Below are positions 17,170-29,275 of a stretch of DNA of 64,000 nucleotides, piece after piece. The stretch comes from Mahella sp. Lineage in GTDB: Bacteria; Bacillota; Clostridia; Mahellales; Mahellaceae. How positions within the stretch are numbered: position 1 is the first letter of the stretch; every line of letters begins with the position of its first letter. Position numbers and translations under genes: made by a program. The notes beneath the pieces were generated by a model that saw only the letters and a list, made by a program, of their open reading frames with translations, was not told the origin of the DNA and ran no database searches. The DNA lies in NCBI RefSeq assembly GCF_020054945.1, contig NZ_JAIHAU010000003.1, forward strand, positions 29,948 through 93,947, written 5' to 3'.

Positions 17170-18081
17170 CTATTGTTCGTCATCCGGCGGCAGATCAAAC
17201 GGCTGCGGCGGATTCTGTTCATTATCTTCTATGGGCTGCAAATTGGCATCTGCAGGACGGAAATTATGATATACTATGAATAGATATGCCGTTATAATGG
17301 CACTCAAATAAGAAATTATAAGAACCCCCAGTACACTCATATAATTGATCACAGAAATATCGCCAATAGAATTGCCAGTAATGGCAGCATAGATGTAATT
17401 AGCACCCCAACTTATACCAATTATCATTGCTGCTATCAGAAGCATAACAACGATCAGGCTCCAGAAATGATGCGAGACCGCTTTTGCACCACGCCTCAGC
17501 CCTTCGAATACGCCCACATCGTCTATTACCATAGCCGGCTGCCATAACGCAAGAAATATAATCCCTATGAATACACCTATAAATATTACTACTATAGCTA
17601 CTGTTCCACCTATACCCATATTCGCCGCTTGTTCTACTGCTGTCGGATCATTTACTAAATTAGCAAACGCTGAACCGGCAAGCAAAGCCACCAATATAAT
17701 ACTTATTACTACTGTTACTGCTATGACCATAGCTACAATGAGCAATGATTGTCCGACGAAGCGCCAGAAATACCGCCTTATACCTTGCATAAAGCTCGAA
17801 AATCCAGCCTGCCCGTTTAATAAGGCCTGTTTCATCATACCGGCCTGCCCTGCTTGTATTAATAAGATTATTATGGCCATAACAAATCCGTATAAAGCCA
17901 TTGACCCAATTATATCACCCATCATTTCGATGGCCGCATCTGGATCAATTACCATGTTAAACCCGCTCATGTTCTGTACTTGCATATCGCTTATAAAAAG
18001 CGATATAAACCATATGGCTAATGTCGGTATTATCAATATGAGATTTCTTGAAATTAACCCAAAGGCCCTTTTTAAATACAT
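17170..18081 (-). CDS. Multi-pass membrane protein of unknown function
   Basis: ORF 303 aa, strongly hydrophobic with about six TM segments. Confidence 0.75.
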   Translation of the reverse strand: MYLKRAFGLISRNLILIIPTLAIWFISLFISDMQVQNMSGFNMVIDPDAAIEMMGDIIGSMALYGFVMAIIILLIQAGQAGMMKQALLNGQAGFSSFMQGIRRYFWRFVGQSLLIVAMVIAVTVVISIILVALLAGSAFANLVNDPTAVEQAANMGIGGTVAIVVIFIGVFIGIIFLALWQPAMVIDDVGVFEGLRRGAKAVSHHFWSLIVVMLLIAAMIIGISWGANYIYAAITGNSIGDISVINYMSVLGVLIISYLSAIITAYLFIVYHNFRPADANLQPIEDNEQNPPQPFDLPPDDEQ

Positions 18082-18172: not shown

Positions 18173-19519
18173 TCAGCAAAGGCGTTCAGGTGCTTCTATG
18201 TTCAATATATATAATCCATTGGCTAATACTATGCGTGCAGCCTCCAGTAACCCCAACCGTGCATACATAAGGTCGTTATTACTTATGCGCACGCGACATT
18301 CGTCATAAAATTTATGGAATAAATCGGCTACATCTGCGAGATAATCAACTAAAATAGCCGGTTGTCTATATTGAGCCGCTACTGTTATTTCGTGAGGCAG
18401 CTCGGCCAAACGACGCATCAACGCCTGCTCGGCCGGATGGTGCAGCATAGAAAAATCTATTTCCTCAGGCGGAATCAATGCCACTCTGTTCGAATCCATA
18501 TGCCGCAATATACTGCAAATACGCGCATATGCATATTGTACCTCAAAAAGGCCATCTTCTTTATCCCTTGAGCTGCTGAGCATAAAACGCAGCGCATCCC
18601 TGCCGGCACCTTCCATTGAGGGACTATAATCAGGCGCTGCTATATATCCCAGATGCTCGGGCTCGCATCCCAGGCAAATCATGGCCTCGCGCACCGTTTC
18701 AAATGTATCGGCCGATGCCCTATCACCTATTTCTATCACCATGTCATACCCTTCTTTAAATATCTTTCTTCGATAATAGGCCATGCGCATAGTAATATCT
18801 GTAAACACTCCTTCTTTTAGAATCAATGCGTTATGCCTATCTGCCACAAATCGCATGTCATCGCCTTCATGCCTTACATAACCCATAATATCCATCTCTT
18901 CTACAGTTTCTCGCAGATCAGAATCGTACAATTGCCGTTCATAAAACCATGACGGCAGTACTACGCCATACAGCCTCAGGTTAACTATCTCATCATTAAC
19001 CTCTTGCATATTTTTATCACTATTCACATAACGCTCTCTTAACACATCATACCCTGCCGCCTCTAATATATTGGCCAAACAATCCCCCCATACGATGGTA
19101 TATATATCCATATCATGAAAGGATATCAAGACCTTGCGATTATCCCCTATATCCACCCGTCCGTATTCATCTCTTTCCTTTAATATCAACGTCAGCACAT
19201 CGTAGAACCATTTCGGTTTTAGAAATATATTTATAAAACCGGGACCTGCTATTTCCATGCGATCTATATATGTACCGGATAAATTGATATGTTCCAGCAG
19301 CGTTCGGGCTATATAGTCAGAAGGCTTACCTGTTATCCGTACCATTTCTACAGGCATGTTCGTATAAAAATCTCCATGTCTTGTATCGCGGGTCTTGTTC
19401 AGCTTTACATCATATACGCCCTGGTATGCTATACTTCCATCGAGCTGAGCGGCGGTTAAAGCACTGTTCAGCACCCCTGCTATCTGCTCGGTTATATACC
19501 GTATAGGGTCCGCCATCAT
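18173..19519 (-). CDS. Arginyl-tRNA synthetase-like protein lacking catalytic motifs (DALR anticodon-binding domain retained)
   Basis: ORF 449 aa. N-terminal RDTRHGDFYTNMPVEM...MEIAGPGFINIFL and C-terminal VQYAYARICSILRH...HPAEQALMRRLAELP...DLFHKFYDECRV...ARLGLLEAARIVLANGLYILNIEAPERL match ArgRS. HIGH, GADHHG and KMSK segments absent. ATG at 19519 overlaps the murI stop by 1 nt (TGATG). Confidence 0.85.
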   Translation of the reverse strand: MMADPIRYITEQIAGVLNSALTAAQLDGSIAYQGVYDVKLNKTRDTRHGDFYTNMPVEMVRITGKPSDYIARTLLEHINLSGTYIDRMEIAGPGFINIFLKPKWFYDVLTLILKERDEYGRVDIGDNRKVLISFHDMDIYTIVWGDCLANILEAAGYDVLRERYVNSDKNMQEVNDEIVNLRLYGVVLPSWFYERQLYDSDLRETVEEMDIMGYVRHEGDDMRFVADRHNALILKEGVFTDITMRMAYYRRKIFKEGYDMVIEIGDRASADTFETVREAMICLGCEPEHLGYIAAPDYSPSMEGAGRDALRFMLSSSRDKEDGLFEVQYAYARICSILRHMDSNRVALIPPEEIDFSMLHHPAEQALMRRLAELPHEITVAAQYRQPAILVDYLADVADLFHKFYDECRVRISNNDLMYARLGLLEAARIVLANGLYILNIEAPERLC

Positions 19520-20325
19520 CAATACCTCTCTATATCTACCTTAGTGGCAGATGATATATGGCATTTAAGGAAATTACTGCCTATTTTCTTGAATCTCTCG
19601 CCGTCATCGCTGGCAAAATAACGATACTGCGGAGGATTGGCTCCATCATTCAAGATATCTATCCGGGCCAAAACGCGTCTCAATATTAAGGCTGTTTCCT
19701 CAGCCGGATTTATCAAATTCACACCTGCCCCAACAACCCTTCTTATAGTATCTGCCATCAAAGGGTAATGCGTGCAACCCATAAGCAACGTATCAATGCT
19801 CTTATCTTTAAAAAAAGACAGATATTCCAGCGCGGCCATATATGCTATCTCGCTATCCTGCAATCCTTCTTCGACCAGCGGCACAAATAAAGGGCATGGC
19901 TTCGCAAACGTTTCTATGCTATCATCCAATGACTTTATAGCCTTCTCATAAGCACCGCTATTTATGGTACCCTCGGTACCTATGATACCCACACGCTTAT
20001 TTTTGGTGGCGCGAACCGCCGTTGTAGCACCGCCCTCTATCACGCCGAGTATCGGCACATCAAATTGTTGCTGCGCGACCTCCAAACTAATAGCGCTGGC
20101 AGTATTGCAGGCCAGCACCACCGCTTTTATACCCTGGCTCATAAGAAAACGCACCGACTGTAATGTAAACTTTATAACCGTATCGCGCGAGCGCGTGCCG
20201 TAAGGCACGCGCGCCGTATCACCGAAATATATTATATCCTCCGCAGGCAATTGTTTCATGATTTCTTTTACCACAGTCAATCCGCCTACGCCCGAATCAA
20301 AAACACCTATAGGTCTGTTGTCCAA
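19519..20325 (-). CDS. murI: Glutamate racemase
   Basis: ORF 268 aa; RPIGVFDSGVGGLTVVKEI, VLACNTASA, LMGCTHYPL. Confidence 0.96.
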   Translation of the reverse strand: MDNRPIGVFDSGVGGLTVVKEIMKQLPAEDIIYFGDTARVPYGTRSRDTVIKFTLQSVRFLMSQGIKAVVLACNTASAISLEVAQQQFDVPILGVIEGGATTAVRATKNKRVGIIGTEGTINSGAYEKAIKSLDDSIETFAKPCPLFVPLVEEGLQDSEIAYMAALEYLSFFKDKSIDTLLMGCTHYPLMADTIRRVVGAGVNLINPAEETALILRRVLARIDILNDGANPPQYRYFASDDGERFKKIGSNFLKCHISSATKVDIERY

Positions 20326-20355: not shown

Positions 20356-21438
20356 TTAAAAACCCGAACGCCGCAGCTCATAACGCTCCAAGGCAAGCTC
20401 TATAAGGCGATCTATCAGCTTGTCATATGGCAGGCCGCTAGCATTCCATAACTTCGGATACATGCTTATCTTAGTAAATCCTGGTATTGTATTTACCTCG
20501 TTAAGATATACCGTATTATCGCTCTTTTTGACCAGGAAATCTACGCGGGCCATACCGGCGCAATCCAAGGCCTTGTAAGCATCGACTGCCAGCCCGCGCA
20601 CCGTTTCCATGACATCTATAGGTAAACCGGCAGGTATAATAAGCCCGGACTTGCCTTCATCGAAGTACTTGGCATTATAATCGTAAAATTCATTGCATGG
20701 CACGATTTGGCCTATTGTCGACGCCTCAGGATAATCATTTCCGAGTACCGCGCATTCTATCTCATAACCGTCTATAAATTCTTCCACAAGTATCTTGCGA
20801 TCGTATTTACCTGCCAATTCCATGGCCTGTATAAGCTCATCTCTATCGTGCGCTTTGGTAATGCCAACGCTGGAGCCCATATTCGCAGGTTTAACAAAGC
20901 ACGGATAGGCCAGCTTTGTTTCAACCTCTGACACAAATACCTCGGGACTAGTCTTAAAATGCTCGTAAACAGTGCTGACATATTCAGCCGTCTTTAATCC
21001 ATGGCGCAAAAATACATCTTTAGACAGCACTTTATCCATAGCCAACGACGAGGCCAACACACCGCAACCCACATATGGAATACCGGCCAACTCCAGCAAT
21101 CCCTGTACAGTGCCATCCTCCCCATGCGGTCCGTGCAATATCGGAAATATAATATCTGCAGGTATAAAAGCACAATTACGCTCTATATCTATGAACCCTT
21201 TATATGACGGATCCGGAGCAAGCACGACAGGCCGCGCTGATGCTTGCCATCTGTTTGTTTCTATATCTTCTAAAGCGCCTTCATACAACATCCAGCGCCC
21301 TTCTTTCGTTATACCCACCATAATAGATTCATATTTATCTTTATTCATATTGCGCAGTACGGATACTGCCGACATGAGCGACACCTCATGTTCTCCCGAC
21401 TGCCCGCCGAATAATACCGCTATTTTCTTTTTATCCAC
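20356..21438 (-). CDS. ddl: D-alanine--D-alanine ligase
   Basis: ORF 360 aa; KKIAVLFGGQSGEHEVSLMSA, LHGPHGEDGTVQGLLELAGIPYVG, EVNTIPGFTKISMYPKLW. Confidence 0.96.
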   Translation of the reverse strand: MDKKKIAVLFGGQSGEHEVSLMSAVSVLRNMNKDKYESIMVGITKEGRWMLYEGALEDIETNRWQASARPVVLAPDPSYKGFIDIERNCAFIPADIIFPILHGPHGEDGTVQGLLELAGIPYVGCGVLASSLAMDKVLSKDVFLRHGLKTAEYVSTVYEHFKTSPEVFVSEVETKLAYPCFVKPANMGSSVGITKAHDRDELIQAMELAGKYDRKILVEEFIDGYEIECAVLGNDYPEASTIGQIVPCNEFYDYNAKYFDEGKSGLIIPAGLPIDVMETVRGLAVDAYKALDCAGMARVDFLVKKSDNTVYLNEVNTIPGFTKISMYPKLWNASGLPYDKLIDRLIELALERYELRRSGF

Positions 21439-28410: not shown

Positions 28411-28486
28411 TGGTGGGCCATCAGGGACTCGAACCCTGGACACCCTGATTAAGAGTCAGGTGCTCTGCCAGCTGAGCTAATAGCCC
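28411..28486 (-). tRNA. tRNA-Lys (CTT)
   Basis: GGGCTATTAGCTCAGCTGGCAGAGCACCTGACTCTTAATCAGGGTGTCCAGGGTTCGAGTCCCTGATGGCCCACCA; cloverleaf with encoded CCA. Confidence 0.95.
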
Positions 28487-28493
28487 ATTGTAA

Positions 28494-28568
28494 TGGAGCG
28501 GAAGACGGGATTCGAACCCGCGACATTTGCCTTGGCAAGGCAACGCTCTACCACTGAGCCACTCCCGC
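28494..28568 (-). tRNA. tRNA-Gly (GCC)
   Basis: GCGGGAGTGGCTCAGTGGTAGAGCGTTGCCTTGCCAAGGC...GGGTTCGAATCCCGTCTTCCGCTCCA. Confidence 0.95.
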
Positions 28569-28589
28569 ATACTTTATTATCATCGCACA

Positions 28590-28674
28590 TGGTGCGGGCG
28601 AAGAGACTCGAACTCCCATACCTCGCGGTACCAGATCCTAAGTCTGGCGCGTCTGCCAATTCCGCCACGCCCGC
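28590..28674 (-). tRNA. tRNA-Leu (TAG)
   Basis: GCGGGCGTGGCGGAATTGGCAGACGCGCCAGACTTAGGATCTGGTACCGCGAGGTATGGGAGTTCGAGTCTCTTCGCCCGCACCA; class II variable arm. Confidence 0.95.
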
Positions 28675-28680
28675 GCATAT

Positions 28681-28756
28681 TGGTGACTCATCGGGGATTC
28701 GAACCCCGGACACCTTGATTAAAAGTCAAGTGCTCTGCCACCTGAGCTAATGAGTC
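28681..28756 (-). tRNA. tRNA-Lys (TTT), copy 1
   Basis: GACTCATTAGCTCAGGTGGCAGAGCACTTGACTTTTAATCAAGGTGTCCGGGGTTCGAATCCCCGATGAGTCACCA. Confidence 0.95.
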
Positions 28757-28761
28757 AAATT

Positions 28762-28836
28762 TGGCTGGGATGGCAGGATTCGAACCTACGAATGCAGGAG
28801 TCAAAGTCCTGTGCCTTACCGCTTGGCTACATCCCA
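28762..28836 (-). tRNA. tRNA-Gln (TTG)
   Basis: TGGGATGTAGCCAAGCGGTAAGGCACAGGACTTTGACTCCTGCATTCGTAGGTTCGAATCCTGCCATCCCAGCCA. Confidence 0.95.
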
Positions 28837-28888
28837 ACGTTAACGTCGCCTTGATCTATCAAATAGCTCAATGTGGCCGACGTTTATT

Positions 28889-28917
28889 ATTATAGCAAAC
28901 ATATATAAAGTATGCAA
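28889..28917 (-). promoter_or_regulatory. Putative internal sigma-A promoter in the tRNA cluster
   Basis: Minus strand TTGCAT-N17-TATAAT, upstream of tRNA-Gln. Confidence 0.7.
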
Positions 28918-28942
28918 CATTTATGATAAAAATTTCCCAAAA

Positions 28943-29018
28943 TGGTGACCCATCGGGGACTCGAACCCCGGACACCTTGATTAAAAGTCAAGTGCTCTGC
29001 CACCTGAGCTAATGGGTC
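28943..29018 (-). tRNA. tRNA-Lys (TTT), copy 2
   Basis: GACCCATTAGCTCAGGTGGCAGAGCACTTGACTTTTAATCAAGGTGTCCGGGGTTCGAGTCCCCGATGGGTCACCA; differs from copy 1 mainly by compensated acceptor-stem changes. Confidence 0.95.
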
Positions 29019-29031
29019 GCAAAAATAAAAA

Positions 29032-29108
29032 TGGGGTGAATGGTGGGACTTGAACCCACGACCTCCAGGGCCACAACCTGGCGCTCTAACCAGCTGAACT
29101 ACATCCAC
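29032..29108 (-). tRNA. tRNA-His (GTG)
   Basis: GTGGATGTAGTTCAGCTGGTTAGAGCGCCAGGTTGTGGCCCTGGAGGTCGTGGGTTCAAGTCCCACCATTCACCCCA; encoded G-1 at 29109. Confidence 0.95.
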
Positions 29109-29115
29109 CACATTA

Positions 29116-29192
29116 TGGTGCGCCTGGAGGGATTCGAACCCCCGACCCACGGATTAGAAATCCGTTGCTCTATCCTGCTGAGCTACAAGCGC
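29116..29192 (-). tRNA. tRNA-Arg (TCT)
   Basis: GCGCTTGTAGCTCAGCAGGATAGAGCAACGGATTTCTAATCCGTGGGTCGGGGGTTCGAATCCCTCCAGGCGCACCA. Confidence 0.95.
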
Positions 29193-29201
29193 TAGTTATA
29201 A

Positions 29202-29275
29202 TGGAGCGGGTGATGGGAATCGAACCCACGCGGCCAGCTTGGAAGGCTGGAACTCTACCATTGAGCTACACCCGC
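29202..29275 (-). tRNA. tRNA-Gly (TCC)
   Basis: GCGGGTGTAGCTCAATGGTAGAGTTCCAGCCTTCCAAGCTGGCCGCGTGGGTTCGATTCCCATCACCCGCTCCA. Confidence 0.95.

Follow-up and report, generated by a model that had tools for sequence, protein, structure and literature searches.

What becomes of an arginyl-tRNA synthetase (ArgRS) gene that keeps its reading frame and loses its catalytic motifs? The question is raised by the 64,000-nucleotide stretch of a Mahella sp. genome analysed here (the window). Mahella is a genus of heat-loving anaerobic bacteria, and in the window an ArgRS-like gene comes after ddl and murI in the same orientation, among cell-wall genes. We propose that the old ArgRS is probably now a new non-enzymatic protein with a tRNA-handling or regulatory function.

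The reading frame is real and uninterrupted, as the sequence-only reading had described it, with 448 codons open on the minus strand from an ATG at 19519 to 18173. The length of 449 residues given there does not apply to these coordinates, which hold 448 residues; an in-frame TTG at 19522, one codon before the ATG, yields the 449-residue version. The ATG shares bases with the murI stop codon (TGA at 19521-19519, forming TGATG), an overlap confirmed on the minus strand, and AGAGAGG lies a few bases 5' of the ATG. The murI gene for glutamate racemase covers 19519-20325, and ddl (20356-21438), also on the minus strand, is the first gene of the run. Scans, which are weak evidence, indicate a terminator-like site before ddl (21586-21550) and a strong promoter-like match after the stop codon of the ArgRS-like gene. 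The arrangement fits a three-gene unit of ddl, murI and the ArgRS-like gene. The downstream gene (17170-18081) is membrane protein-like, with a weak likeness to DUF7847 (24.8 bits, below the cut-off) and a dN/dS of about 0.33. An Rfam search of the surrounding 24 kb found nothing besides a tRNA cluster at 28.4-29.3 kb, an array of nine tRNA genes on the minus strand (28411-29275) including tRNA-Arg(UCU), and defence-system families gave no match.

The window protein is a member of the ArgRS evolutionary family, based on two Pfam domains, a full-length alignment and its nesting in the ArgRS tree. Both the N-terminal, D-loop-binding domain (Arg_tRNA_synt_N, Pfam ID PF03485, 2.2e-14), at residues 17-101 (19220-19474, minus strand), and the DALR anticodon-binding domain (DALR_1, Pfam ID PF05746, 4.8e-31), at residues 328-448 (18179-18541, minus strand), score above the cut-off. 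The profile-profile alignment of the three known Mahella proteins with canonical ArgRS spans 449 columns (E 2e-69, probability 100%), which bears out the end-to-end alignment claimed earlier. The catalytic family (Pfam ID PF00750) stays below its cut-off, with 12.1 versus 23.3 bits and a sub-threshold trace of 25 residues, and the ArgRS equivalog TIGR00456 is not reached (181 bits versus a cut-off of 262).

The motif losses were read from an alignment with 16 full-length canonical relatives. The canonical HIGH segment is replaced by KVLISFHDMDIYTIVWGD, which is 9 residues shorter and unrecognisable, leaving the scar SFHDMDIYTIVWGD (19082-19123, minus strand, as are all following features of the gene); the motif is deleted or replaced in all three Mahella species. 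The acceptor-side insertion lacks about 65 residues after YVNSDKNM (deletion point at 19001-19012). Where canonical proteins have (I)WGADHHGH, the Mahella protein reads EIGDRASADT (18704-18733), with GDRASAD in place of WGADHHG, and this replacement is invariant across the three species. The KMSK-type loop, a stretch of about 20 residues with (K/R)MSKR, is absent, its flank being PDYSPSMEGAGRDALRF (18584-18634), and another 13 residues are lost before the DALR domain. The sequence-only reading had described the HIGH, acceptor-side, WGADHHG and KMSK losses as in frame, and each is seen in the alignment and recurs in the two other species. The parts lost are those with which ArgRS touches ATP, arginine and the acceptor end. 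Judged from its sequence, the protein is not an active ArgRS by HIGH, KMSK, PF00750 or TIGR00456.

The genus comparison covers the window genome (an assembly of 75 contigs), the closed genome of Mahella australiensis, reported as 3,135,972 bp for strain 50-1 BON (PMC3156404), and an independent MAG (JASGMM010000002). The ArgRS-like gene is intact, in the same position and with the same losses in both other genomes. The window protein is 81-82% identical to either ortholog, and the orthologs share 94% identity with each other. Taking as class-invariant those residues that are invariant or nearly so among the 16 canonical relatives, the DALR domain keeps 33 of 38, the N-domain 11 of 18 and the catalytic core 28 of 115, with 37 of these core residues deleted outright. 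The dN/dS is 0.10-0.11 for the DALR domain, 0.16-0.17 for the core remnant and 0.27-0.28 around the lost KMSK loop, where the flank is the least constrained segment (about 0.28).

ArgRS contacts tRNA-Arg through its N-domain at A20 of the D loop and through its DALR domain at the anticodon arm. Within the N-domain, the block EIAGPGFINIFL (19220-19255), aligned to the E. coli ArgRS chain of 5b63, is identical to a stretch of that chain, and residues of this block may contact A20, as reported for Thermus thermophilus ArgRS. All four tRNA-Arg genes examined carry GGATAGAGC, i.e., A20. E. coli ArgRS uses this nucleotide as its main arginine determinant and contacts it directly in 5b63 (PMC9976931). 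Against tRNA reading stand the seven of 18 N-domain invariants that are altered and the precedent of HisZ as a protein-protein regulator. Our confidence in tRNA reading is moderate, since the terminal Met, which all 16 canonical relatives share, has given way to Leu-Cys, the core remnant has become more acidic (net charge -18 versus -7 in one canonical relative), and no candidate partner gene is adjacent to the ArgRS-like gene. An AlphaFold2 model from the shallow alignment of three sequences reached a mean pLDDT of 44 and a pTM of 0.37, too low to be informative.

The best explanation, to which we assign about an even chance, is that a displaced resident ArgRS now acts as a non-catalytic adaptor or regulator, with presumed binding to tRNA-Arg and a putative partner. 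The protein would be the remnant of a class-typical argS from a ddl-murI-argS locus, and aminoacylation would now be supplied by a complete ArgRS that belongs to a distant subtype and has its gene elsewhere. The old protein has shed its HIGH and KMSK loops together with the acceptor-stem insertion and the arginine pocket, but retains the two domains with which ArgRS reads tRNA-Arg, the N-domain and the DALR domain. We infer that it may still hold tRNA-Arg at the elbow and on the anticodon side without covering the acceptor end, and that, by analogy with known synthetase relatives, the bound protein could serve as an adaptor or regulator.

A different reuse, possible but rather unlikely in our judgement, would make the protein a protein-protein or small-molecule-sensing regulatory subunit, serving, e.g., an arginine-related enzyme or the active ArgRS itself, with no need for tRNA. 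The model for such a role is HisZ, a paralog of an aminoacyl-tRNA synthetase (aaRS) that does not adenylate and instead regulates HisG (PMC9437257). Despite its lost ligands, the core remnant is conserved, at a dN/dS of about 0.17, suggesting some new contact, and the changed C-terminal Met and several changed N-domain invariants also favour this role. However, constraint is strongest in the anticodon-binding DALR domain, whose invariants are mostly retained, and a tRNA-free role explains none of that. The sequence-only reading had noted the nearness of argD and carA, but these genes are separated from the ArgRS-like gene by at least 5 kb and by other genes, and they lie on the opposite strand, so that we judge the link incidental. 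Arginine regulation is, furthermore, already served by ArgR, which is present in the Mahella genome.

The displacement assumed for the adaptor or regulator can be followed in the genomes. A second, full-length argS had been suggested as a check, and the single PF00750 match in the window's genome is such a gene, located on another contig and encoding all three ArgRS domains and the HIGH motif. ArgRS falls into two distant subtypes within the class. Relatives with the first subtype have a complete argS downstream of ddl and/or murI in 19 of the 20 stretches examined, the exception (L054) having neither gene found near argS. In the maximum-likelihood tree, the Mahella trio lies inside this murI-linked subtype beside two members (95/92); its stem measures 2.15 changes per column and its tips 0.03-0.11. 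The active Mahella argS lies inside the second subtype (type-B). The synteny of the relatives and the position of the trio on a long stem indicate displacement of the resident argS, followed by its domestication at the same site. Together with the short tips, they indicate that the resident enzyme was functionally replaced, massively changed and afterwards held constant. They thereby support the earlier proposal that argS originally lay beside murI and acquired a new role once another ArgRS had taken its place. The second-subtype Mahella ArgRS may have been acquired by transfer or through an old duplication. In many first-subtype relatives, a DUF1934 (YwiB) gene directly precedes argS. None was found in the three Mahella genomes, and it therefore seems to have been lost together with the enzymatic argS. 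A T-box-like match below threshold (44.7 bits, gathering score 93) was seen at the 3' end of the active type-B argS (L108, G000:C4:38540-38677, minus strand).

The presence of two ArgRS-derived proteins that share one set of tRNA-Arg in the same genome also brings to mind a helper of the displacing enzyme. Such a chaperone-like protein would bind tRNA-Arg or the type-B ArgRS and, in a thermophile, make tRNA-Arg better charged, stored or stabilised. The other genomes with a type-B ArgRS that were surveyed lack such a partner, however, and the gene is not linked to the active argS, which makes this role improbable.

Large losses and a replacement argS are also what would be expected of a decaying pseudogene caught while its frame was still open. 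The dN/dS of the gene is 0.16, 0.15 and 0.16 for the three pairs (Nei-Gojobori), far from 1; it is 0.15-0.16 at a dS of 0.6 and again 0.16 at a dS of 0.17. For scale, the same pairs give 0.115, 0.10 and 0.08 for murI and 0.34, 0.34 and 0.32 for the downstream membrane-protein gene. Neutral copies simulated to the divergence of the more distant pair gained 15 stop codons on average and never fewer than 7 in 500 runs, whereas no stop codon or frameshift was observed in any of the three species. With the frame intact in all three and no relaxed selection, we reject decay as very improbable. A normal argS distorted by assembly or annotation, conceivable for a genome in 75 contigs, is rejected as next to impossible, since the closed M. 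australiensis genome and the independent MAG show the same gene structure. The same losses in both orthologs, the low dN/dS and the constraint in every segment thus rule out both error and decay. The earlier description of a non-catalytic, domesticated ArgRS paralog is supported by the motif loss, the purifying selection, the second argS, the synteny and the tree.

The collapsed form is so far restricted to Mahella in the genomes searched. Among the matches listed from 391 genomes of the class and 399 of the phylum, the ArgRS frames are ordinary, mostly 550-620 residues long, and no other collapsed ArgRS was confirmed. Of the few short frames, two from the class list were inspected, the others being those in G156, G461, G456 and G514, and both were rejected: one (L109, G357:C135) is a canonical argS whose catalytic and DALR parts are split by a single frameshift, probably introduced during assembly, and the other (G067) is cut by a contig end. 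A scan of about 85,000 species genomes with degenerate patterns returned solely the MAG of the same genus, the two patterns finding close relatives only. In the literature searched, nothing relevant to a bacterial paralog of ArgRS or to NrtL turned up. On an IMG/VR contig (L102:1611-3320), a complete canonical argS lies beside a terminase-like gene and might be a phage-borne synthetase or the host flank of a prophage.

Compared with the canonical murI-linked ArgRS (class Ia aaRS; argS, TIGR00456), the Mahella protein has end-to-end homology, the N-domain, the DALR domain and the position after ddl and murI in common, but lacks HIGH, KMSK, WGADHHG and the acceptor-side insertion. NrtL (NF045898, ArgS-related anticodon-binding protein) is another ArgS-derived anticodon-binding family, already curated in NCBIfam, and resembles the Mahella protein in having N-domain and DALR-like parts and a shortened middle. 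The NF045898 model of 327 positions matches the Mahella protein at both ends, but its 116 bits are far below the cut-off of 340, and no special kinship is shown because the model also matches ordinary ArgRS. HisZ is likewise a bacterial aaRS paralog with no adenylation activity and has a regulatory role (PMC9437257), but it is derived from HisRS and has a known partner, HisG. Relatives of aaRS in new jobs are already known, but the text of a review of duplicated synthetases makes no mention of ArgRS (PMC9437257).

The closest functional parallel may be human DALRD3, which lacks a catalytic motif; its complex with METTL2 recognises particular tRNA-Arg species, whose m3C modification depends on DALRD3 (PMC7237682). 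Like DALRD3, the Mahella protein is ArgRS-related and carries a DALR domain without recognizable synthetase catalytic motifs. Unlike it, DALRD3 has no recognizable ArgRS domain in its N-terminal half, is vertebrate-specific and has METTL2 as its partner. The two likely arose independently, judging from the nesting of the Mahella trio inside clostridial ArgRS. By this analogy, we tentatively suggest, with slightly less than even confidence, that the Mahella protein is a bacterial counterpart of DALRD3, in which a resident ArgRS, displaced by one of another subtype, lost its active site at its original locus and turned into an adaptor or sensor specific for tRNA-Arg. If so, the ancestral locus, the close catalytic relatives and the replacement enzyme would all be visible for one genus. 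A single clade displays all the steps, from the ancestral gene and its neighbours through the replacement enzyme and the loss of the active site to renewed constraint, making testable both the route from a synthetase to a non-enzyme and the need of tRNA-Arg for an extra reader in the Mahella lineage.
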